From a virus, in IMG/VR virus record IMGVR_UViG_3300006922_000177, positions 1 through 24,406 of that record: a stretch of 24,406 nt of DNA, one strand, 5' to 3'. This document shows positions 3,839-23,733 of this stretch, one piece after another (within the stretch, counting starts at the first letter, position 1; every line of letters starts with the position of its first letter). Made by a program: the position numbers and the translations under genes. The notes below the pieces were generated by a model. That model ran no database searches, was not told the origin of the DNA, and saw only the letters and a list, made by a program, of their open reading frames with translations.

Positions 3839-4366
3839 TTATGCTTCTATGCCATCAGGGTGTCTGATAAGATAGAGTGCGTCAACAGAGACCTGCACAC
3901 CCATAAGTGAGCCACGGTCAACAACGATGCTTTGTGATGATGGACGACATCCCACAACTGTATAAATCTTACGGTCTTCATCTTGAATACTGCCGTCAGC
4001 TTCGCCTGGTGCAGCACTGTCGTAAATCTCTAAGTCGAATGCTGAAGATGAAAGTGCATTGTCAGTTCTTGCAGAAGCTGTTGGATTTTGTCCTTCAGCA
4101 ACTTGCTCAGTTGTAATCATTGAGCTTTCATCTACTTCTTCGGCCTCAACAAGTCCGTTGTTAGAATTAGTTTTAAAAATACGTATAAAGTTAATAGTTG
4201 CTGTAACGATGCGTGAAATAGGTGTAATCTCTCGACTATCAATAAAACCTAAACTCTCTACACGTCCATTAAGCTGACTTTCTTGTATAGAAATGCCTGT
4301 TGCATATCCACATACTTTGCCGTCGACCTTAACTATTGCTTTAGCTCCTGTAATTATGTTTGCCAT
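3839..4366 (-). CDS. Tail tube protein (175 aa)
   Basis: The tube protein polymerises into the inner pipe of the contractile tail through which DNA passes. The call rests on position directly after the sheath gene (11-base gap) and on size, since myovirus tubes are commonly about 130-190 residues. The N-terminus MANIITGAKAIVKVDGK and the alternating strands after it (YATGISIQESQLNGRVESLG, IVTATINFIRIF) fit the beta-barrel tube fold. The middle is an acidic, Ser/Ala-rich loop (about residues 75-110) that could be surface-exposed or line the lumen. The C-terminus returns to beta strands (GVQVSVDALYLIRHPDG). The start has AAGGAG at normal spacing. A probable terminator follows the gene. Confidence 0.78.
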   Translation of the reverse strand: MANIITGAKAIVKVDGKVCGYATGISIQESQLNGRVESLGFIDSREITPISRIVTATINFIRIFKTNSNNGLVEAEEVDESSMITTEQVAEGQNPTASARTDNALSSSAFDLEIYDSAAPGEADGSIQDEDRKIYTVVGCRPSSQSIVVDRGSLMGVQVSVDALYLIRHPDGIEA

Positions 4367-4377
4367 TGTTTATCTCC

Positions 4378-6069
4378 TTATTGGCCTGCTACGATATTAG
4401 CAGTAATGCGAATGAAGTTGAGTGGCTCGATAAGTGCAACGTCAAAGTCAATAAAAATAGTATCAGCCTCACGTCGGAGTTGAATATTTCTAAAGTCTTG
4501 GATAGCACCTAAATCACGAAGTTGAGTTAAACGCTGCTTAGCAAGCGCTGATACTCTATTACCAGTTGAATTAGTAATACGTGAGCCAAGCTCGGATGTT
4601 AAAAATTTACGAAGTTCTCTTACACATACGTCAATACTTTCTCTACAAGATACTTCAGTATTAACTGAAAGGTCATCTTTACGCCAAGATGTTAGTGAGC
4701 GAATAACCTCAAGTTCATTGCTTGACCCAAGTTTAACAGCAACGATACTCTTTTGAGCAACGCTATTGCTGGCACGCTCTCTATCCCAGTTTTCTTTTGT
4801 ATCAAAGATGTTAAGTGCTTTACGAGTTAGTGGCTCTGCAGGAGGCAATGCACCTTGAGCACACATCAACATAAATGCTAAATACTCAGGTCCTTCATCT
4901 CTACGTGCGCCTTTATGGTCTGCAAAAGTAATGTCTTGACCAACAACTGATATTCTAAAGTCGTTCATCTTTAAAACGTATCCACTGTAAATATCAGCAA
5001 GACTTGTTTGTGAAGGTGCACCGACCCAAGCATTTCTCTCACGACCTGCAATGTATGCAAGGTCTAAGTGTCCTTTAAGAAGGTCGTGATGGTCCTGGTC
5101 TGTTGAGAAAACTGTGATTGTTGTAATGTCTTTATTCTCAACAGAAGCAAAAGCAGCAGAATACTGTGCATCTGTTGGAGCTCCACCGTTAACTGCAGCA
5201 GTTGATGGACCAGTATATACAAAGTCTGGAAGTAATCTATATCCATCAGCAAGCTCAACATCAAATGGAAGGCTTGAGAAAGACTCGATAGTATCGATAA
5301 GTTCTGCAGTATGTGCGTGTAATGCGATAGTGTTTTGTCCCACTGATGTATAATCTAATACGTCGAGCTTTGATGGGACGCTAAATGATAAAGCGATACC
5401 AGCTAAAGCAGCAGGTAAAACAGCAACTAATTCATCCATACGAGAATAATCTGAAAGTATGAATGTTTGTGCAGCTTGACCGCTTGGCGTATAAACCATT
5501 GTCTTAGAAGTTGTAATCTCAAGCTGGTCTCCGTCTGCAAGAGTAAGTTGCAATTGGTCACCGCCGTCGATTACATATTCAGCATCTGTGTCTTGCCAGG
5601 GTGCGCGAAGACTTAGTTTATAGTATGGTCCGGAAGCGGAAAGCTCTGCAGGCAACGATGAAGGGTCGTCAAGTTGAAGTCTAATATCATTGCCGCTTGT
5701 GCCGTAATATGTTGACTTAAGTGTGAGTGCATCCGTCGCAGTTGCGTCTTGCAAGACCCATTGAGCCTGTGTGCTTTGTGCTGCACTAACGTAAGTGATA
5801 GATTTGGAAATGCCGTCTGCAACAGCTAATGAGCGTCTCCAAATTTTATCAAGTGTTAGCAATTTCGCGTCCATAGGATAAACTTCAGTTAAATCGAAGC
5901 CTCCTTGACCGAATTTGTATGGTGTATCTTTTTTGAGTATGGGGAACTCCCCAACTACACAAAGATTTTTTGCTCCAAGCTGACCACTGGTATCGAGTGT
6001 ATTTACAACATCGACAACAACGCTTGGCTCATAAAGCCTTGTGCCTCTAAATGTAATTGATGATGGCAT
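4378..6069 (-). CDS. Tail sheath protein (563 aa)
   Basis: The sheath protein forms the contractile outer sleeve of the tail and makes this phage a myovirus. The C-terminal about 140 residues have the conserved sheath-domain pattern: a helical segment with CRESIDVCVRELRKFL, a variable loop, then LRDLGAIQDFRNIQL and the closing strands FIDFDVALIEPLNFIRITAN, which in known sheaths link neighbouring subunits. The region around AYIAGRERNAWVGAPS also matches sheaths, where people-of-origin variation is low and Gly/Pro turns recur. The N-terminus (ITFRGTRLYEPSVVVDV) is the usual start of the sheath's subunit-linking arm. A less conserved beta-rich insertion occupies about residues 110-290 and probably faces outward. 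The start has AAGGAG. It is followed directly by the tube gene. Confidence 0.9.
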   Translation of the reverse strand: MPSSITFRGTRLYEPSVVVDVVNTLDTSGQLGAKNLCVVGEFPILKKDTPYKFGQGGFDLTEVYPMDAKLLTLDKIWRRSLAVADGISKSITYVSAAQSTQAQWVLQDATATDALTLKSTYYGTSGNDIRLQLDDPSSLPAELSASGPYYKLSLRAPWQDTDAEYVIDGGDQLQLTLADGDQLEITTSKTMVYTPSGQAAQTFILSDYSRMDELVAVLPAALAGIALSFSVPSKLDVLDYTSVGQNTIALHAHTAELIDTIESFSSLPFDVELADGYRLLPDFVYTGPSTAAVNGGAPTDAQYSAAFASVENKDITTITVFSTDQDHHDLLKGHLDLAYIAGRERNAWVGAPSQTSLADIYSGYVLKMNDFRISVVGQDITFADHKGARRDEGPEYLAFMLMCAQGALPPAEPLTRKALNIFDTKENWDRERASNSVAQKSIVAVKLGSSNELEVIRSLTSWRKDDLSVNTEVSCRESIDVCVRELRKFLTSELGSRITNSTGNRVSALAKQRLTQLRDLGAIQDFRNIQLRREADTIFIDFDVALIEPLNFIRITANIVAGQ

Positions 6070-12935: not shown

Positions 12936-13040
12936 TTATTTAGACTTATTACGTTTACCGTATTCTGAAGGTGGGACTTTATCTTGTTGTTTACTTTGAA
13001 TAGATATCCAGTATGCCCATTGTTGTTCTAAATCACTCAT
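12936..13040 (-). CDS. Small ORF translationally coupled to the portal gene (34 aa)
   Basis: The ATG at 13,040 overlaps the portal stop codon by one base (TAATG). The same junction occurs between the two connector genes at 6,680, so coupling is credible. The peptide is hydrophilic with two Trp and one Tyr near the start (LEQQWAYWISIQSKQQ) and a basic end (YGKRNKSK). No family is recognised. It lies in the otherwise gene-free 195 bases between the portal and the 151-residue gene. It may be a true microprotein or a vestige. Confidence 0.45.
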   Translation of the reverse strand: MSDLEQQWAYWISIQSKQQDKVPPSEYGKRNKSK

Positions 13041-15595
13041 TAATCTTTTAATCCTTCTACAAATATTTCTTTAGTTTCTTTTATAGACAGAGATTTTTTA
13101 CTTTCTAAATGTTTATCCCATAAGTGCTTATCAGCTTTACGTGCTCCACTCTTACTGTCAAATAAGAAGGCATAGCAACGGGCTCTTGCCCAAGATTGTG
13201 GTGTTTGTCCCGGTCTATGTCCACTTGTTGCTGCAGCAGCTAAACCTTTATCATATACTTCTTCAATAATCTTCTTAGAAACACCACTTACTTTACTTGC
13301 AGCACGAATAAATTCATCTTTACCGGGCTTTTTAATCTCTTCTCTTACTTCATCAGCCTTTTTAGACTTAGTGCCTTTATTTTGTTCAGCTTTATCAAAA
13401 TCGTAATCATCTCCAGGGAGTGGTCCATAAATCTGTTCACCAGTCTCCTTGAAATGTTCTTGGCGTCTTTCTATTTCTTTTTCTCTTTCTCTCGCAATAT
13501 CCTCAGGTAATCCTTCAAAGTATTGTGCTGGGTGTCCTTCTCCGTCTCCGTCAAAATCTACCTTAGCTTTTTCCATATCTTCTGAAGTTTTTCTATCTAC
13601 TTCGTATAATAATTCTTCTACCCAAGCTAATGCTTCAAATCCACCCCATAACATATATGAGATATATCCTCTATCAGTCCAAGGTTTATCCTCGTTTGAT
13701 GGCTTTGCGTTTTTCTTATGCCTTATAAGAAAGCTATACATTCTTTCAATGATGTTTAACGAGAGTTTTTCTCCATTTGCTAATTGATTAACTCTCTTTT
13801 TACCTACAGCTGTTCCACCCTGAACTTCATCACCAAACTCTTCTTTAAGTTTATAATATTCTTTAGCAACAGCTACTACTTCAGATGGGACTTCAAATAT
13901 AGCATCATCATCACTGAATTTATCCCAGTTAATCTTATCTAAATAGTCAAAGTTAAATGTAAGGTCTTTTACTTCCTTCATTTCTGCTTCAACTTCCTTA
14001 TCACTAAACTCTGCTTTGACTACGTCTTCTGAAGGAGTTTTAGGTGCTACTTCACCTTCTAATTGAAGCTCTTTTTCGTGCTCTTCATTAATAACTTCTT
14101 CTAAATCACTGTCAATATCATCTTTACCTACTTCGTTGGCAACAAGAATACCTTGCTCTTTAATAACTGCAGTCTTAATTGCTGTATAAGCTGCTGCAAG
14201 AATATCACCGTCTTCTAACTCAGGTAAATCGTGATATGTGCGTATCTCATTTAAGGTCATATATTTCATCTTGTGCTCTTCTAACTTCATCTTATCCATT
14301 AGAGAAACACTGTCAAGACCTGTAAATATTAATTTATATCTGTCATCAATCTGGTCGATAATATAACGATTAATCCACGATTGTAATGACCTAACTAAAG
14401 GACGTAAACCTTTTTCTTTGCCCATTAAAACACGAGCAGAAGGGTCTGTCCCAAATAAACTGCTGTTTTGGCTCTCATTACCAAAAACAAATCCTATTTC
14501 AGCAGGGTCAATTTGATAAACTGAGCAAGTAATCTTAATTAAATAGTTTACCCAAGTATCATACTCCATCTCTTTGTTAGAAGGCTGAAGATTGATTGAC
14601 GAGATGTCTTCTTTCTCATCAGGGTCTAATTGTATAAGTGGTGTGCGTTTTGCATTGCCTACACCATTAAGCATTTGATAAAATTCACGTCTAAAACTTC
14701 TAAATAGCTTAGGGTTCATCTTAGACTTAATAGCAATAATACCGTTTGCATTTATACCGTTTGTAAAGTTTGCTGCGTTATATGTTTCTGCATTAAATAG
14801 ATTGTTAAGCACACCGTATAACTCAAATAACTCTGAATATCCATATCCTTTTGATTTAATCTCACTACGAGGACGTCTAACACCAAAACAGAGTTCATCT
14901 TGTTTATATTCAGCAACAACTTTATTGTTTATTACCTGAACATAACGAATACCATCAGCGTCTCTACGACCTCTTGCTACTTCTTCTTTAGTTAGTGGAG
15001 CTTTTTTAATAGTTGTTGCATCAACAGGCATAAATCTACTGATTTGTCCTTTTCTATTTTTAACTATTTCGAAGCAAGCTTGGTCATAAATCAAACTATC
15101 TCTAATAATTTGTCTAATAAAACTCTCAAAAGTTAACTCGTAATCTTCTATAGATGAGCCACATTGATGAAGAAAGCGTTGAAGTGCTTTTATGTTTTCT
15201 CTATCATCATCTGATAACTCTTGATGTTCGTCTTTTAAAACGATTTTATAACCTAAATCCTCATCAGGTGAATATTGAGCAAACTCTGCACACTGATTTA
15301 TACGACTACCTATGATTGAGCTGATAATATGGTGCTTTGAAAGATTTTTTAGTGCATCTACATTTAATTTGTCTGATTGCGCTTCTTCAAAGTAATATTT
15401 TTTCCCACTACCTTCATAACTATTCATCATCATCGCGTTTGCGTGGTCGTATGGGTCAACGTTATGATATTTAGCTTCTTTAGCTATTGTTTCTAAAACG
15501 TGCTCACCACTGGGAGTAACATCCAAAGGCTCAACACTTTTTGTAAGAGCGTTCTCATCTTCAGATTTTCTTGTAAAAATGTCATACCAAGCCAT
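13040..15595 (-). CDS. Portal protein with an extended C-terminal region (851 aa)
   Basis: The portal is the dodecameric ring at one head vertex through which DNA is packed and ejected. The first about 500 residues show the portal pattern: an N-terminal region leading to HIISSIIGSRINQCAEFAQY, a wing with ESFIRQIIRDSLIYDQACFE, the strand-turn part ISRFMPVDATTIKK, and the GYGYSELFELYGVLNNLFNA helix with PLIQLDPDEKEDIS before the crown/stem helices. An acidic linker is at about 510-560. From about residue 640 there is extra sequence (YISYMLWGGFEALAWVEELL) and, at about 785-830, SGHRPGQTPQSWARARCYAF, a motif seen at the ends of several phage head-associated proteins. The total is well above the usual 450-600 residues. 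GAGGAG within the preceding ORF serves as ribosome site. Confidence 0.85.
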   Translation of the reverse strand: MAWYDIFTRKSEDENALTKSVEPLDVTPSGEHVLETIAKEAKYHNVDPYDHANAMMMNSYEGSGKKYYFEEAQSDKLNVDALKNLSKHHIISSIIGSRINQCAEFAQYSPDEDLGYKIVLKDEHQELSDDDRENIKALQRFLHQCGSSIEDYELTFESFIRQIIRDSLIYDQACFEIVKNRKGQISRFMPVDATTIKKAPLTKEEVARGRRDADGIRYVQVINNKVVAEYKQDELCFGVRRPRSEIKSKGYGYSELFELYGVLNNLFNAETYNAANFTNGINANGIIAIKSKMNPKLFRSFRREFYQMLNGVGNAKRTPLIQLDPDEKEDISSINLQPSNKEMEYDTWVNYLIKITCSVYQIDPAEIGFVFGNESQNSSLFGTDPSARVLMGKEKGLRPLVRSLQSWINRYIIDQIDDRYKLIFTGLDSVSLMDKMKLEEHKMKYMTLNEIRTYHDLPELEDGDILAAAYTAIKTAVIKEQGILVANEVGKDDIDSDLEEVINEEHEKELQLEGEVAPKTPSEDVVKAEFSDKEVEAEMKEVKDLTFNFDYLDKINWDKFSDDDAIFEVPSEVVAVAKEYYKLKEEFGDEVQGGTAVGKKRVNQLANGEKLSLNIIERMYSFLIRHKKNAKPSNEDKPWTDRGYISYMLWGGFEALAWVEELLYEVDRKTSEDMEKAKVDFDGDGEGHPAQYFEGLPEDIAREREKEIERRQEHFKETGEQIYGPLPGDDYDFDKAEQNKGTKSKKADEVREEIKKPGKDEFIRAASKVSGVSKKIIEEVYDKGLAAAATSGHRPGQTPQSWARARCYAFLFDSKSGARKADKHLWDKHLESKKSLSIKETKEIFVEGLKD

Positions 15596-16280: not shown

Positions 16281-19121
16281 TTAGAATGAGCCTATAGCTA
16301 CTCTTTTCCAAGTATTAGTTGAGACACAAACATAGATAAAGCCTGAGTCAAAGCGAATATCACCAGCTGTCCCACTTGCAGAAGCAGAAGCAGGTTCTGA
16401 ACCTTCAAGTCTTATTTGACCAGCAACTGCACCAGAGCAATCAACTTCTGATGTGGTCATCTTAGCAACCTTAAAGTCAGCAGCTGAGTGTGTTCCTACA
16501 GTTGTTGTTGGCTCACCTGAAGAAGTAAATGCGATGAATTCATCAGCACTTTCGTCAAAAGCAACACCAGCAAATCCGTTAGAACCACCGATACCATCAC
16601 CACGTTGTCCATAGAAGCCAATATCTTCAAGGTCTGTATTGCTAACACCGAGCTCTAACAAGTTATCTGCGAATGAAACGTTAGCTCCTGTTGCAGAAAG
16701 ACCGGCCGCTGAAATATTACCTGTAATAACAGCATTACCACCTACAGAAAGACCAGCGCCAACATCAAGGTTAGTTGTAACATTGACAGAAGCTGGGAGA
16801 CCAACTGTGAATTTGTTAAGAGCAGCACTATATGCAACTTCAACCTCAGAAGAAGTTCCGCCGATAAATAGTGTGCTACCAAGCTCAAGTGTCTCTGAGT
16901 TAGATGTATCAGAAACGGTAAATCCTGGATTAACAAGCATATCGTTAGTAATTTGGTCATCACCAATAGTTGTTGAAAGGCTTAGATTACCTGTGCCATC
17001 AAAACTAACTGCTCCAGCTTGAACTGGTCCAGAGCCAATGCTAAAGTTTCTTGCAGTTTCTAAAGCAGTTGCTGTTGCAGCGTTACCAGAAGTATCGTTC
17101 TGAATTGTATTAGGTAATCCGATAGTAAATACGGGGCCAGTTGCTGAGTGTGAAACAGAGCAATCTACCTCATTACTTGTGCCTTGGATTACAACGTTTT
17201 TACCAAGTTCTGAAGTTGCAGGAGTTCCACCATCACCAAATCCGAAGCCTGGGTTAGCAAGCATTGTGTTTGTAATTTCATCAGCAGCGATAGTTGAAGT
17301 TAGACCAACGTTTCCTGTCGCGTCGAATGAGATATTAGCAGCTCTAACAGGTCCAGCAGTAATACCGATATTACGTGCAGTCTCTAAAGCAGTTGCTGTT
17401 GCAGCATTACCACTTGTATCACTACCAATAGATGCTGGGAGACCATAAATAACTTTATCTTCAGATGCTGAATAGCTTAGGTCTAAGTTAGTTGCATCAA
17501 ATTCTAATGTTGTGCCTAATGCTCTATCATAATCAACACCATCAACTTGAATAACGAGTTTGTCGTTCTCAAGCATTGCATTTGTAATTTGGTCTGCAGC
17601 GATAGTTGAAGTAAAGTTCGCGTTGCCTGTTCCGTCGAAGCTAACTGCTCCAGCTCTAACTGGTCCAGCATTAATTTCGAAATTACGAGCAGTTGCTAAA
17701 GCAGTCGCAGTTGCTGCATTACCAGAAGTTGCTGATGAAATTGTGCTTGGCAATCCGATAGTATAAGTCCCTGCATTCTCAGCAACCTCAACTTCGTTTG
17801 AAGTTCCTTGAATGGTAAGAGTGCCACCAAGAGATACTGGAGAAGTATTTGAGCCATCGCTGAAAGTAATAGAAGAGTTAGCAAGTCTTCCGTTTGCAAC
17901 AGAGCCATTTTTAAGAGCAATGTCTAAAGCAACATTAGCTGTGCCGTCATAACTAATAGCAGAAGCTTCCATTTCAGTTGAAGAAACAGAGAAGTTTCTT
18001 GCAGTCTCTTGAGCTGTTGCAGTTGCTGCGTTTCCAGTTGTTGCTACGTTAATAGTTGATGGGAGACTGAATGTAAGGTCATTGCCACCAGCAGAATATG
18101 CGATAGCAACTTGGTTAGCTGTTCCGTTAAAGTCGATTGTCTCACCAAGAGCAATACTCTCACCACCAGTGCCATCAATTGTAATACCAATAGTGCTATT
18201 ATCAAGCATACTGTTTTCTACAGCACCACCTTGGATAGTTGCTGCGATATTAATAGCATTTGAGCCATCAAAGTTTGCTGTTCCCGCTACGTCTCCAGAA
18301 ATCTGGATAGCTCGTGCAGTCTCAAGTGCAGATGCAGTCGAAGCATTACCTGTAAGAGCACCAGTAAATCCAGTTGAAGAAACAGAAGTTAAGCCAGAAA
18401 CAGTTGAAGGTAATCCTACTGTAAATGTGCCATCAACACGAGCAACTTCTACCTCGTTGCTTGTTCCTTGAATAACTATAGCTGTTCCAAGCTCTCTAAG
18501 TGCTGGAGTTGTTCCATCACCAAAAGTATATCCTGGGTTAGCAATCATTGAGTTTTCAACAGCGTCTGATTGGATAGTTGCTGTAATACTTACGTCAGCT
18601 GAGCCGTCGAAATTAACTGTGCCGCCTAAATCACCACCAAGTGCGATTGCGCGTGCTGTTTCGAGTGCGTCAGCAGTATCTGCTTTACCGGTCAAATCAC
18701 CTGTAACATCACCTTCGAGGTGTGAAACGAGTGTTGCTTTATTACCACTTGCAAGAGTTCCTACAGTTGTTGAAGGCTCAGAAGCTAAATCTTTAAATAG
18801 TTTAAATTTTCCTCCATCACTTTGGTCGCGATATAAACCGTGGTATTTATCAGAACCGTCATTTGACTGTCCGTAAAAACCAATGTCAAGAGTATCACCA
18901 CTGTTTCCACGAGCAAGTTTGATAAGGGGGTCTTCTGCTTCTACTGTTGAAACTTGAAGAGAAGTTTGTGTTCCAGTAACTGTAAGATTACCTTCAACTG
19001 TTAAGTTGCTTGAGAATGTTCCTGTCTCTGACTTGAGGTCTCCCAAGTGAGCAGTGCCCCATTTAACGGAGCTTGAGCCTAAATCGTGGCCCTTATTACT
19101 ATCAGGTCTTAATGCTGACAT
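16281..19121 (-). CDS. Tail fibre protein with six ~107-residue repeats (946 aa)
   Basis: Tail fibres recognise the host surface. The N-terminal about 120 residues (LGSSSVKWGTAHLGDLKSET; TVEGNLTVTGTQTSLQVSTV; LDIGFYGQSNDGSDKYHGLY) match the fibre-module style common in marine T4-like phages. Then come six repeats that begin GNAATATALETARNF, pass through a strand-rich SFDGTGN part and TIAADQITNAML, and end with QGTSNEVEVA and FTIGLPSTI. The C-terminal about 150 residues resemble the N-terminal module again (DLEDIGFYGQRGDG, GEPTTTVGT) and end in GDIRFDSGFIYVCVSTNTWK, a tip-like ending typical of phage fibres. Ala, Thr, Ser, Gly and Asn dominate, as in beta-fibrous shafts. AAGGAAA precedes the start. 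A terminator follows. The receptor is unknown. Confidence 0.85.
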   Translation of the reverse strand: MSALRPDSNKGHDLGSSSVKWGTAHLGDLKSETGTFSSNLTVEGNLTVTGTQTSLQVSTVEAEDPLIKLARGNSGDTLDIGFYGQSNDGSDKYHGLYRDQSDGGKFKLFKDLASEPSTTVGTLASGNKATLVSHLEGDVTGDLTGKADTADALETARAIALGGDLGGTVNFDGSADVSITATIQSDAVENSMIANPGYTFGDGTTPALRELGTAIVIQGTSNEVEVARVDGTFTVGLPSTVSGLTSVSSTGFTGALTGNASTASALETARAIQISGDVAGTANFDGSNAINIAATIQGGAVENSMLDNSTIGITIDGTGGESIALGETIDFNGTANQVAIAYSAGGNDLTFSLPSTINVATTGNAATATAQETARNFSVSSTEMEASAISYDGTANVALDIALKNGSVANGRLANSSITFSDGSNTSPVSLGGTLTIQGTSNEVEVAENAGTYTIGLPSTISSATSGNAATATALATARNFEINAGPVRAGAVSFDGTGNANFTSTIAADQITNAMLENDKLVIQVDGVDYDRALGTTLEFDATNLDLSYSASEDKVIYGLPASIGSDTSGNAATATALETARNIGITAGPVRAANISFDATGNVGLTSTIAADEITNTMLANPGFGFGDGGTPATSELGKNVVIQGTSNEVDCSVSHSATGPVFTIGLPNTIQNDTSGNAATATALETARNFSIGSGPVQAGAVSFDGTGNLSLSTTIGDDQITNDMLVNPGFTVSDTSNSETLELGSTLFIGGTSSEVEVAYSAALNKFTVGLPASVNVTTNLDVGAGLSVGGNAVITGNISAAGLSATGANVSFADNLLELGVSNTDLEDIGFYGQRGDGIGGSNGFAGVAFDESADEFIAFTSSGEPTTTVGTHSAADFKVAKMTTSEVDCSGAVAGQIRLEGSEPASASASGTAGDIRFDSGFIYVCVSTNTWKRVAIGSF
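16770..18695 (-). repeat. Six tandem protein-level repeats in the 946-residue fibre
   Basis: Units of about 105-113 residues start with G(N/K)A(A/S/D)TA.A.ETAR and end with LP(S/A/N)(T/S)(I/V). The third, fourth, fifth and sixth are most alike. DNA identity is only moderate, so the copies are not recent. Limits are approximate. Confidence 0.75.
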
Positions 19122-19323: not shown

Positions 19324-22300
19324 TTAAGCGTGCTTGCCTGCGAAGACTGCGTCTCCACTTACAGGATGAATAGCGAAGTGTCTGTCTCCATCTCTTTCGC
19401 CCTTGCTTCCAAAGAATACCAAGTCTGTTGTGCCGCCACTAATAAGTGTTGCAAAGTTAATCTGAAATGGACCACTCTTAGATTGAAAAGAGCTAATAGT
19501 ATCGTCCATCTCAACAGCATCGTCAGAAGAATGGTCAAGGAGAACACCTCCATCGCCAATCTCTAACTGTGTAACTCTAAGGTCAAGTGCTGAAAGTGTT
19601 GTGCTATTAGCCTTAGTTGCAATTGCATCTTCGTTAGTCTTAATCTGCGCATCTAATCTGTCGTCTGCATCCTTTAATGAAGTTGCAGATTGAAGATAGT
19701 TAGAAGAAGCGTCTGCTGTATAATCTCCATCTGTATCTAATCCGGCACCTGCTTGAGTTGCGTCTAATTCAGTTTGAAGTGCAGCAATGTTAGAGCTTCC
19801 TAATGAAGATATAGAAGAAGCATTTGTGCTTACCTGTGTATCAAGAGCTTCAATAGCAGCTTTTAAACTATCAGAATTTGAGATATAGTTTGTATTGCTA
19901 TAGTTAGTCTTTGTTCCATCTGCCTGTGTCCCAGCTGATGCACGTATGTTAGTTTGGATTTGATTAAGTAAATTAACATTTGTATCCAGAACTTTAACTG
20001 CATTTAAAACAGAAGATTGTCCGTTAATAAAGTTAGTGCCACTTATAGTTAGACTTCCGTCTGTATTTAATCCTACACTTGCTTCGACTGTATCAATCTT
20101 ACCACTTAGAGTATTATCATCAGCTAAACGAGTTGCTGCTTCGGCTGTAATTGCTGTTTCACGAGCTTTAACAGCTGTATCTAATAACTCAAGACTTCCC
20201 TTAATAGAAGAAGCTGCATCAATATAATTAGTGCTGCTGTGAGATACGAAATCTCCGTTAGCATCTAATCCTACAGCTGCCTCAATCCCATCAACTTCTG
20301 TTTGAAGCGTGCTTAAACTACTTGATGAAGCCTTAGTTGCTATGGCTGTTTCATTAGTTTTAATCTGTGCATCAAGCAGTGAGCTTTCGCCTACTACTGA
20401 AGAAGCACTGTCAAGATAATTACTTCCACTACGACTAACATAAGCTCCAGCAGTTGATAATCCAATTGCTGCTTCTTGAGCTGTTTGTAAAGTATTTAAA
20501 GATGCAATGTCTGCCTCTGCAGTATCAAGGTCATCTTGTGTGCTCTTAAGCTGTGTATCTAATTGTTCTACAGCAGCTTTTAAGTTTGAAGATGAAGTTG
20601 CATAGTTTGCACCGCTAATCGCTGAATAACTACCATTTGCTCCAAGACCTACACCAGCCTGTGTCGCATCTACTTCAGTTTGTAATGCAGAAACAGAGCT
20701 TGAAGAAGCTTTACCTGATACATCAGACTGTAAAGAAGATATATCACTGTCGTTAGAAGAAATAGCAGAAGCATTTGCAGCAATTGCAGCATCTAAATCA
20801 TCGTCAGCGTCTTTAAGACTTGTTGCTGACGCAATGTATGTTGCACCAGTGTTAGCTGTATAAGCTCCAGCACTTGTTAAACCTGCACCAGTTTGTGTTG
20901 CATCAACTTCACTCTGAAGAGTTGAGATTGTGCTATTAATAGTGCTATCAGCACTTTGTCTTGCACTTGTCTCAGCAGCAATAGCATCTTCGTTTGTTTT
21001 AACTTGAGTATCTAATGCTGATGCTTCACCTACAACAGATGTTGCACTGTCAAGATAATTAGAACCACTTCGACCAACATAACTACCGCTTGCTGATAGA
21101 CCAACTGCGCTTTCGTGAGTGTCTGCCAAGCTTTCCAAATCACTAATATCAGATGCGTTAGCAGCAATATCTGTATCATTTGAAGCGATATCATCAGCAC
21201 GGGACTTGATTTGAGTATCAAGCGCAGATAAACCACCCTTAAGAGTTGTAATACTTCCAAGGTAATTAGAAGAAGTCGGTGCTGTAAGACTACCATTTGC
21301 GTTTAATCCTGCTCCAGCTTGTGTTGCATCCAATTCTGTTTGGAGTGCAGTTGTAACAGATGTATCAGCTTTACCACTTTGCAATGTTGATATATCACTG
21401 TCGTTATTAGATATAGCAGTTGTATTTGCTGTAACATCACTCTGTAATGAAGAAATATCACTATCGTTAGATGTAATATTGCCTTCTGCAGATGTAACAC
21501 GAGTTGTAAGAGCTGTTAAATCACTATCATCAGCTTTAAGAGCTATAGCAGTCTCGTTAGTCTTGATTTGTGCATCTAATTTATTATCAGCATCTTTAAG
21601 ACTACTTGCAGCAGTCAAATAATTACTTCCACTATTTGCAGCATAAGCTCCAGTTGTCCCTAAGCCTGCGCCTGCTTGAGTTGCATCTATTTCATTTTCT
21701 AATGCGGTAATCTCACTTGCATTAGTTGAGCCAGCACTTGACAATGTCGATACTGTGGATGATAGATTTGAAATATCACCTGCGTTAGTTGCGACCTGTG
21801 TATCAAGAGCATTGATTTCTCCTCTTACAGAAGAAGCACCTGATATATAATTGCCACCACTGTTAGCAGTAAATCCACCAGAAGTCGTTAGACCAACACT
21901 CGCCTCAACTGTATCAACAACACTTGTTAATGCACTAAGACCAGAAGCATCTGCCTTATTACCAATTGCACTTGTATTAGACACGATAGCAGCTTCTGCT
22001 GTATCTAAATCACCCTGTGTGGTATTAAGTTGTGTATCTAAAGCGTTAATCTCTCCTCTAACTGATGATGCAGAAGCAATAAAGTTTCCACCTGTATTAG
22101 CAGAGAAAGTCCCGTTAGTATTAATACCTACAGAAGCTTCAATAGCATCAACTTCTGCCTGATTAGGTGCGCCAGTCTGAAGATTAGAAACGGTTGTCTC
22201 TAAAGTATCAAGGTCGTCCTGAGTGCTCTTAATTTGAGTATCAAGTTGTCCTACAGCTGCTTTAAGAGTGCTGCTTGATGTTGCATAATTTGCTCCACTA

Positions 22301-23298
22301 ATCGCAGCATAACTTCCATCAGCCTCAAGTCCTACAGAAGCTTCAACAACATTGATTTGTGAAACGTTTGCAGCAATATCAGTATCGTTAGAAGTAATAT
22401 CACTTTCAGTCTGTGTAACTCTGCCAGCCAGTGTTGTTAATGCAGATGATGCTGCTTTTAAGGCAATAGCATCCTCATTAGTTTTTATTTGCGCATCAAG
22501 AAGTGTAATCTCACCTACGATAGATGATGCGCTGTCTATATATTCTGACCCACTACGTGAAACATATGCGCCAGCCACTGATAGACCAATAGAAGATTGT
22601 GATGCATCTAATTCACTCTGTAAAGCTGTAATAGCTGCATTTGAACCTAATCCTGCGATTGCTGTGGTGTTAGCAGCTACTTGAGCATCAACACCTTCGA
22701 TAGCTGCCTTGATAGAAGCTGTGCCGCTATAGTTATTAGCATTAGCGTATGTGCCTAACGTCCCGTCTGATGCAATACCTACCGAGCTTTCAATTGCGTC
22801 TATTTCTGTTTGTATTGCAGATAGATTACCATTTCCTAATGTTGCAATAGCATCTGCATTAGTTTTTATTTGAGCATCAAGCAAAGTATCAGCATTCTTG
22901 AGTGAAGATGCTGAGCCTAAGAAGTTAGTGCCAGTTGGAGCTGTGAATGTCCCGTCTGAGTTAAGACCTGAACCTGCTTCAATTGCATCAATCTCAGTTG
23001 TTAGATTACCAAGGTTTGTCCCTGATAGTGTATTGATTTGAGATTGAAGATTTGCGACTTGTGCATCGACAGTGTCGTGATAATCAGGGTCGTTATTGAT
23101 AGCTTCTGCCAATTTTTCAATTGAGTTTAAGTTAGCAGGAGCATTACCAGAGAGCCCGTCGATTTGAGCCTTTACTAATGCGGGTGTCATTGCGACGTCA
23201 TCACGTAATCCTAAAGACGCCTCTGCTTGTTGAGCAAAGCGAACGAGACCTTCTGATGATTTCGATGCCTTGTCTTTAACCGAAATTAATATAGCCAT
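19324..23298 (-). CDS. Giant repetitive tail fibre protein (1,324 aa)
   Basis: The protein is a long shaft made of about 16 copies of a module of about 45-50 residues joined by variable helical spacers. A typical module reads LDATQAGAGL, then a Gly-Ser-rich turn with SGSNYLDSASSVVGE, then LDAQIKTNEDAIA, after which Ser/Asn/Asp-rich coiled-coil spacers (SSNDSDISSLQSDV) follow. Similar Ser/Thr/Asn-rich repeats are found in cyanophage and pelagiphage fibres. The N-terminus (VKDKASKSSEGLVRFAQQ; APANLNSIEKLAEAINNDPD) is like the anchor end of phage fibres, which attaches to the baseplate. The last about 75 residues differ and are rich in Gly and aromatic residues (FFGSKGERDGDRHFAIHPVS), suiting a receptor-binding tip. 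AAGGAAA precedes the start. Trimeric fibre is inferred from family knowledge. Confidence 0.83.
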   Translation of the reverse strand: MAILISVKDKASKSSEGLVRFAQQAEASLGLRDDVAMTPALVKAQIDGLSGNAPANLNSIEKLAEAINNDPDYHDTVDAQVANLQSQINTLSGTNLGNLTTEIDAIEAGSGLNSDGTFTAPTGTNFLGSASSLKNADTLLDAQIKTNADAIATLGNGNLSAIQTEIDAIESSVGIASDGTLGTYANANNYSGTASIKAAIEGVDAQVAANTTAIAGLGSNAAITALQSELDASQSSIGLSVAGAYVSRSGSEYIDSASSIVGEITLLDAQIKTNEDAIALKAASSALTTLAGRVTQTESDITSNDTDIAANVSQINVVEASVGLEADGSYAAISGANYATSSSTLKAAVGQLDTQIKSTQDDLDTLETTVSNLQTGAPNQAEVDAIEASVGINTNGTFSANTGGNFIASASSVRGEINALDTQLNTTQGDLDTAEAAIVSNTSAIGNKADASGLSALTSVVDTVEASVGLTTSGGFTANSGGNYISGASSVRGEINALDTQVATNAGDISNLSSTVSTLSSAGSTNASEITALENEIDATQAGAGLGTTGAYAANSGSNYLTAASSLKDADNKLDAQIKTNETAIALKADDSDLTALTTRVTSAEGNITSNDSDISSLQSDVTANTTAISNNDSDISTLQSGKADTSVTTALQTELDATQAGAGLNANGSLTAPTSSNYLGSITTLKGGLSALDTQIKSRADDIASNDTDIAANASDISDLESLADTHESAVGLSASGSYVGRSGSNYLDSATSVVGEASALDTQVKTNEDAIAAETSARQSADSTINSTISTLQSEVDATQTGAGLTSAGAYTANTGATYIASATSLKDADDDLDAAIAANASAISSNDSDISSLQSDVSGKASSSSVSALQTEVDATQAGVGLGANGSYSAISGANYATSSSNLKAAVEQLDTQLKSTQDDLDTAEADIASLNTLQTAQEAAIGLSTAGAYVSRSGSNYLDSASSVVGESSLLDAQIKTNETAIATKASSSSLSTLQTEVDGIEAAVGLDANGDFVSHSSTNYIDAASSIKGSLELLDTAVKARETAITAEAATRLADDNTLSGKIDTVEASVGLNTDGSLTISGTNFINGQSSVLNAVKVLDTNVNLLNQIQTNIRASAGTQADGTKTNYSNTNYISNSDSLKAAIEALDTQVSTNASSISSLGSSNIAALQTELDATQAGAGLDTDGDYTADASSNYLQSATSLKDADDRLDAQIKTNEDAIATKANSTTLSALDLRVTQLEIGDGGVLLDHSSDDAVEMDDTISSFQSKSGPFQINFATLISGGTTDLVFFGSKGERDGDRHFAIHPVSGDAVFAGKHA
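19600..22998 (-). repeat. About 16 modules repeated in the giant fibre
   Basis: Each module holds a GL/VGL motif followed by a Gly-Ser turn, an (N/E)Y aromatic site and a LD(A/T)Q(I/V/L)KT-type helix end. Subtypes recur out of order: the YVSRSG type is at modules 3, 9 and 12, the AISGANYATSSS type at 4 and 11, and the GAGL..LKDAD type at 1, 7, 10 and 16. Limits are approximate and counts were made by eye. Confidence 0.7.
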
Positions 23299-23324: not shown

Positions 23325-23693
23325 TTATTCTTCAATAAATCCAACGTATAGTTGAACGTCTGCTGCAGCAACACCGCTGAATTTTATTCTGAGTGCGTCG
23401 AATACAGGGTCAATTCCAGGACGTCCTAATAGAACGATGTCTTCGCCTGCTGAAGCAGCGCCACCTTCTTGTGAAACGAAAGGCAAAAAGAAATCGTCAT
23501 CAGCTCCTGAAGGCCTAAATTCTACAGTAAACGTTCCTGCTGCATCATACTCATTACAAGCAATTTGTGCCTTAGAATGTTTGTGAGTTGGATTAAATCC
23601 GATGTTAGATGCATCTAAAGTGATGCTTAGTTCGTTTTGAGCGTTTTTATCTGCTGCTTCGAGAGTGAAGCGTCTTACTTTTACACCAGCCAT
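23325..23693 (-). CDS. Uncharacterised beta-rich protein before the giant fibre (122 aa)
   Basis: No family is recognised. The start at 23,693 is chosen because AAAGGAGA precedes it by five bases; an earlier in-frame ATG at 23,732 lacks such a site. The protein alternates hydrophobic and polar residues in strand-like fashion (VKVRRFTLEAADK; AGTFTVEFRPSG; ALRIKFSGV; VQLYVGFIEE), with a His/Lys-containing loop (FNPTHKHSK) and no membrane segment. That suits a small beta-sandwich. It lies 26 bases before the giant fibre gene and is probably cotranscribed, so a fibre-attachment or decoration role is possible but not shown. Confidence 0.65.
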   Translation of the reverse strand: MAGVKVRRFTLEAADKNAQNELSITLDASNIGFNPTHKHSKAQIACNEYDAAGTFTVEFRPSGADDDFFLPFVSQEGGAASAGEDIVLLGRPGIDPVFDALRIKFSGVAAADVQLYVGFIEE

Positions 23694-23733
23694 AATTATC
23701 TCCTTTGTTGTGATTATGTTTGAGGTGTGCAAC

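Follow-up and report, generated by a model that had tools for sequence, protein, structure and literature searches.

Short cores exchanged on a fixed scaffold, and fiber bodies exchanged between virion lineages, in a putative proximal tail fiber of a myovirus

The window analyzed here is the whole 24,406-bp stretch of the IMG/VR virus record IMGVR_UViG_3300006922_000177, which encodes a 1,324-residue fiber (FIB) together with myovirus genes for portal, protease, major capsid, and sheath. We found that module subtypes recur out of sequence along FIB, that module spacing is conserved among its close relatives, that short module cores are replaced while the linkers between them are conserved, and that trees of different parts of the locus conflict. 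FIB is likely the proximal half of a long tail fiber, a loop-bearing segmented coiled coil that has been diversified by loop exchange and by swaps of the whole fiber body.

A profile of the repeated core placed 16 modules in FIB, spaced 47–119 residues apart over 19522–23004 (residues 99–1259), close to the roughly 16 modules over 19600–22998 given by an original prediction made from the letters of the window. The three subtypes it named were recovered at the modules it gave, two of them with slightly looser motifs: a V type, YV(S/G)RSG, at modules 3, 9, and 12 (60–69% amino acid identity; YVSRSG as predicted, with module 9 reading YVGRSG); a C type, AISGANYATSSS, at modules 4 and 11 (69%); and a B type, LK(D/N)AD, predicted as GAGL..LKDAD, at modules 1, 7, 10, and 16 (52–69%; module 1 reads GSGL and LKNAD). 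Two further features were absent from the prediction: modules 5 and 6 are a similar neighboring pair, and module 8 resembles the LKDAD type in its first half only. The most similar module is a neighbor for just 3 of the 16 modules, and the mean distance to it is 6.75 modules against 5.67 in permuted arrays, with 1714 of 2000 permutations giving a value as low or lower, so the array is more than a tandem series, which answers the refuting condition set by the prediction. Modules share about 40–67% of their DNA positions, and the eight exact DNA repeats of at least 14 bp within FIB are no excess over synonymous-codon shuffles (mean 7.3, standard deviation 2.7, 30 shuffles). Together, these two results suggest that the exchange events are old; nothing in the window looks recent, and recent gene conversion was dropped as a candidate.

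Scans of viral contigs yielded nine further distinct full-length fibers (L003, L004, L005, L006, L011, L076, L077, L078, and L079). The ten loci share the gene order p135, FIB, fib946, portal, p151, protease, with p135 of L011 cut by the contig end, and the ten fibers range from 1,021 to 1,598 residues. There are 11 modules in L077, 12 in L011, 13 in L006, 14 in L004, 15 in L005, 16 in the window and L078, 17 in L076 and L003, and 20 in L079; in L003, 18 modules were called at first, and one of them, a fragment of 16 residues, was removed by score. An additional contig, L128, is 99.9% identical to the window over 15,882 bp (15 differing sites) with FIB intact. It is the sole one of the near-identical contigs found that covers FIB, and it holds no length variant: its five differing sites in FIB leave the protein 100% identical and the modules unchanged.

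Cores are all about 30 residues long across the ten fibers, while linker length varies by position. Positional tests used the five fibers with alignable spacings (window, L078, L076, L003, and L005) and a position map drawn up manually from the series of spacings; the positional pairs leave out a single additional module in each of L076 and L003, L005 lacks position 3, and core types were labeled by clustering and hand-set motifs. The order of spacings was conserved in all 10 pairs of these fibers, with none of 500 shuffles per pair as high. Over positions 1–16, the core types read BFVCRRBBVBCVMEDB in the window, BRVRRHBHVBHCMEDV in L078, BFVCRRBBBBCVMEDV in L076, BFVRRHBVBBHVMEDV in L003, and BD.RRHBHRBHVMEDV in L005, so that type changes at eight positions (2, 4, 6, 8, 9, 11, 12, and 16) and is constant at the other eight. 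Where it changes, cores at the same position are 38.7% identical (n = 49 pairs), against 37.8% for different types at non-matching positions (n = 2,077), whereas the middles of the linkers beside changed cores are 47.0% identical (n = 60, length-matched) against 24.9% for non-homologous linkers (n = 580). Same-type cores are 61.5% identical at different positions (263 pairs) and 67.5% at the same position (107 pairs). Because the types themselves came from clustering and motifs, the comparison was repeated without them, using equal 24-amino-acid lengths for linker centers and cores: linker centers had their best match at the corresponding position in 178 of 272 cases and cores in 112 of 272, and discordant cases favored the linker 98 times and the core 32 times. 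Nearly all cores at changed positions (96 of 98) were closer to another position of the other fiber (mean 66.1 vs 38.7%), and for 71 of the 98 the same type is present elsewhere in that fiber. At position 16, window and L076 share 90–100% of amino acids before the core, 12–75% in bins across it, and 92% after it. With changed cores at background identity and linkers specific to their position, short cores have been replaced in place: single cores were exchanged and the rod segments kept their lengths.

These patterns refine what had been predicted for the window. Recombination between modules stands, now with nine further fibers behind it, but its mode differs from the one proposed, being in-place core replacement at half of the positions. 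Modules 3–4 and 11–12 do carry the same two types in opposite order, as proposed; among the close fibers, position 3 is of V type in all four that have it, position 12 is V in four of five, and position 4 is of the AISGANYATSSS type in just two, the window and L076, which points to separate single-core placements rather than inversion of a block. Shuffling was also proposed as a way to alter fiber length and, possibly, host range. Since cores are replaced within a fixed spacing, most changes leave length unaltered, though lengths do differ between species, at 11–20 modules.

Gain or loss of one or two modules has also happened. L076 has two neighboring F-type modules where other fibers have at most one, L003 has one extra C-type module, and L011 has a C–V pair (residues ~391–549) that is missing from L077. 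The DNA of this pair is 69.5% identical to window modules 11–12 over 443 nt and, in part, 81% identical to L076 over 165 nt.

At a larger scale, L078 and L011 carry the fiber body and partner distal fiber of another virion lineage. L078 resembles L006 in portal (80%), protease (69%), p190 (74%), p135 (68%), and the FIB N-terminus (71%), whereas its FIB body is closer to L003, L005, and L004 (61–63%) than to L006 (49%). The L078 tip is 97% identical to that of L003 but 46% to that of L006, and the L078 fib946 shares 64–66% with the window, L076, L003, and L005 compared with 48% for L006. Likewise, portal (79%), capsid (74%), and tube (84%) place L011 near the window, while the closest FIB body (74%), tip (89%), and fib946 (74%) are those of L077; the L011 and L077 portals share 62%. 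The virion tree groups L078 with L006 (support 100/100) and rejects both L078 with L003 (approximately unbiased (AU) test, p 6e-93) and L011 with L077 (AU p 5e-5); the tree of the FIB C-terminal part recovers precisely those two groups (100/100 each) and rejects both L078 with L006 (p 7e-4) and a virion clade that includes L011 (p 3e-9). The N-terminal tree returns L078 to L006 (100/100). In identity windows, L078 tracks L006 over residues 1–60 (78–90%) and then L005 and L076, and L011 tracks the window and L005 over residues 1–60 (best 78–82%) and L077 from about residue 61 (80–90%). At the DNA level both switches lie near nt 150–240, in or just past the conserved APxALDTLNELAAAIN. By the AU tests on the virion and FIB C-terminal trees, parts of FIB have conflicting histories, as in mosaics of phage receptor-binding proteins.

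The linkers of the ten fibers show a strong heptad pattern: counted from the L of LD, offsets 0, 4, and 11 are V, I, L, or M in 99, 88, and 91% of linkers, and offset 7 is N in 69%. Period-3.5 power in the window fiber is 0.597 against a maximum of 0.345 in 1,000 shuffles. In two single-chain structural models (predicted local distance difference test 57.6 and 72.6; predicted template modeling score 0.19 and 0.28), the linkers lie within helices, which give way to non-helical structure at the cores. These features suit a loop-bearing segmented coiled coil, and the rod is probably trimeric. Linker length was a multiple of 7 in 0 of 141 linkers and mostly 4 or 6 modulo 7 in the ten fibers, whose linkers are not independent; these values may reflect the coil register between loops. 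Any likeness of FIB to trimeric autotransporter adhesins is presumably limited to the asparagine layer in the coil, and their membrane anchor domain had no Pfam match in FIB up to E 0.1. No fibritin family was among the Pfam matches of FIB, and solved structures in the PDB gave no sequence match (E up to 1 for the C-terminal alignment, up to 0.1 for the whole protein).

Two phage proteins share the FIB module: EST35_0305 of Pseudomonas phage PA5oct, a structural protein annotated with the note electrospray ionization tandem mass spectrometry (ESI-MS/MS), has three copies, and the 'tail fiber protein' of Vibrio phage VB_VaC_SRILMA has one clear copy. Neither of the two has a long array. The window FIB has a PHROG tail match, and fib946 matches the long tail fiber distal subunit family phrog_11011 (E 3e-14) and other tail fiber families; these matches fall on repeats, so the distal-subunit label is weak. 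The fib946 gene lies directly downstream of FIB in all ten loci, the Vibrio relative has the same order with a distal-subunit gene, and a short repeat is common to fib946 and the distal protein of the Vibrio phage. The structural relative in PA5oct, the Vibrio gene order, and the distal-fiber matches of fib946 together suggest that FIB is the proximal and fib946 the distal protein. Where the FIB tips of L078 and L003 are 97% identical, their fib946 proteins share 77% over residues 80–180, the best match for both, and 72% over the first 80 residues, not the best match; covariation between the FIB tip and the fib946 N-terminus is therefore only partial.

We suggest that FIB consists of an N-terminal anchor, a probably trimeric coiled-coil rod on which the 16 module cores form short loops, and a C-terminal tip that probably contacts fib946. 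On this reading FIB diversifies at three scales. Recombination replaces single cores of ~24–35 residues in place with a type found at another site of that fiber or in a different fiber, leaving the coiled-coil segments and their lengths unchanged; one or two whole modules are gained or lost, changing length; and body, tip, and fib946 move together between distant virion lineages, with a switch in the conserved N-terminal stretch (about residues 50–80) that lets the anchor stay with its own virion. The simplest mechanism would be homologous recombination, either during mixed infection or inside one genome, guided by the conserved core flanks and N-terminal stretch, and selection may favor new host contacts. 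More tentatively, the rod could be a combinatorial display, with some ten loop types in about 16 slots of fixed spacing forming a recombined bar code that aids host binding independently of the tip.

Several results weigh against exchange within a proximal fiber. The exact DNA repeats leave no trace of recent exchange, and spacing is not clearly conserved with the farther fibers (window vs L079, L011, and L077). Trees did not tell linkers and cores apart: the labels for position require 28 changes (minimum 15) on the module tree and 30 (minimum 14) on the linker tree. The AU-tested groups were named after the identities had been seen, and for L011 the N-terminal tree allows L011 with L077 (p 0.53) and gives no clear rejection of the virion clade (p 0.058), so the claim for the L011 anchor rests on the identity windows. 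The structural models are of modest confidence and of a single chain only, and two of six fibers match a PHROG 'minor head protein' family. This last match, together with one fiber matching a 'tail needle' family and the position of the gene on the portal and capsid side, would also suit a neck or head whisker like fibritin, which would show the same loop exchange and serve in fiber control or first contact; PMC3797505 describes the fibritin shaft as a segmented coiled coil with loops. We regard a whisker as possible yet fairly unlikely, because the FIB body moves with fib946, which matches distal tail fiber families, the Vibrio relative is a tail fiber gene directly before a 'distal subunit' gene, and the window FIB itself has a tail match.

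The remaining alternatives concern how the patterns arose. Fast divergence of cores with no exchange between positions, and convergence on few types under selection at each slot, would suit two observations, the eight positions that never change type and the exact DNA repeats no more frequent than the protein predicts, yet the closeness of changed cores to other positions and the sharp edges at position 16 make this improbable. Simple tandem expansion of one module with later divergence and no interchange seems very improbable: modules 5 and 6 form a similar neighboring pair (63%), and like modules are neighbors in L076 (a similarity reached in 7 of 2000 permutations), but in the window the permutation test opposes it, and same-type cores recur at non-homologous positions of other fibers. 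That the cross-lineage mosaics are assembly chimeras is something we hardly credit. Repetitive genes are hard to assemble, and two contigs more than 99.9% identical to the window fall short of FIB, covering the capsid side only and stopping inside fib946 (L043, window 16999) and inside portal (L042, 13759); against this, the pairs L011–L077 (85% DNA) and L078–L003 (97% amino acid identity in the tip) are similar rather than identical, as co-assembled reads would be, and the window and L128 agree at 99.9% with FIB intact in both. Exchange within and between proximal fibers remains the reading we favor; the features concerned are listed in Table 1.

Table 1. Features of the fiber locus in the window
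Feature	Position	Strand	Basis
FIB, 1,324-residue fiber, proposed proximal half of long tail fiber	19324..23298	-	open reading frame; relatives in PA5oct and Vibrio phage; same gene order in ten loci
FIB N-terminal ~100 residues, proposed virion anchor, including conserved stretch (~residues 50–80) where lineages switch	22999..23298	-	N-terminal tree, identity windows
16-module array, ~30-residue cores with coiled-coil linkers between	19522..23004	-	
Module 3, V type (YVSRSG)	22369..22623	-	
Module 4, C type (AISGANYATSSS)	22165..22368	-	
Modules 5 and 6, neighboring R-type pair (VRGEINALD), 63% identical	21703..22164	-	
Module 7, B type (LKDAD), longest linker; type kept at position 7 in five fibers	21346..21702	-	
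Module 9, V type; L076 has B-type core at position 9	20920..21138	-	
Modules 11–12, C then V; similar two-module block is modules 5–6 of L011	20308..20685	-	
Module 16, B type; L076 has V-type core at position 16, flanks 90–100% identical	19522..19779	-	
C-terminal 64 residues of FIB, the tip; L078 and L003, distant in virion genes, share 97% here	19327..19518	-	
fib946, 946-residue repeat protein, proposed distal fiber half, travels with FIB body	16281..19121	-	PHROG matches; identity pattern
p135, 135-residue protein upstream of FIB, tracks virion lineage	23325..23732	-	per-gene identities

The virion genes of the window are distant relatives of those of SPO1-like phages (portal 31–37% and capsid 22–29% identical, among the matches listed). 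We detected a C-terminal DUF5824 domain (PF19141, residues 689–820, E 4e-15) in the portal protein (window 13040–15595). In L025, L029, L030, L032, and L037, the portal match covers ~3.25–3.4 kb of DNA for ~630 residues, and at several other portal loci the match ends near residue 466–470; the ~1.4 kb insert in the portal gene of these related viruses is possibly an intein or intron. L076 (IMGVR 3300023180_000362) is 35–37% identical to the window, L003, and L011 in sheath and 52–55% in tube (window 4378–6069, 3839–4366), with capsid at 76–81%, and its sheath and tube genes look to have been exchanged as well. The fib946 protein has its own repeat (NAATATALETAR...), six stretches of which match phrog_7389, and differs in length among relatives. 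A single copy of the FIB module also occurs in a protein of ~325–416 residues in many viral contigs: L083, L084, L086, L088–L092, L095, L097–L099, L102–L104, and L106–L110. Contigs L131, L132, and L133, from metagenome-assembled genomes of Flavobacteriales, encode proteins of more than 500 residues with low-copy modules of the FIB kind; these are possibly phage contigs binned with a host, and as a pointer to the host of the window virus they are too weak to name one.

These fibers offer a natural case in which the units of exchange, ~25–35 residues long, can be placed on a scaffold that stays fixed, and fiber bodies that move between virion lineages while the anchor stays mark natural joining points that leave the rod unbroken. 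They also make it testable whether the side loops of a tail fiber, besides its tip, contact the host. Among the papers listed by literature searches, none showed an arrangement of exchangeable loops in fixed slots like that of FIB. The T-even tail fiber adhesin reportedly changes by recombination between conserved motifs and by small-domain duplications, going by the titles of work by Tetart from 1996 and 1998 cited in PMC6466182. FIB would be similar in swapping parts at conserved motifs and duplicating small domains, but the T-even case is a distal adhesin, whereas FIB is a rod of proximal type whose many loops keep a fixed spacing. In Letarov and Krisch (2013; PMC3797505), T4 fibritin (wac) is described as having a conserved N-terminal anchor, a coiled-coil shaft broken by small loops, and a swapped C-terminal domain. 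FIB would resemble that description in its proposed anchor, its long and probably coiled-coil shaft with small loops, and its swapped C-terminal part; the swaps recounted there are of the C-terminal domain, old, and follow the capsid tree, whereas in FIB loops and whole body are exchanged, in conflict with the virion tree, and no sequence match to fibritin was found. Tail fibers are among the phage protein classes with recent mosaicism, also across families, according to PMC10684548, where fragments in the sequence-based search were 50 residues or longer; in FIB, the exchanged unit is ~24–35 residues and sits at a fixed slot. Events of this kind are already known for tail fibers, and what sets FIB apart is the small unit and the fixed slots that receive it.

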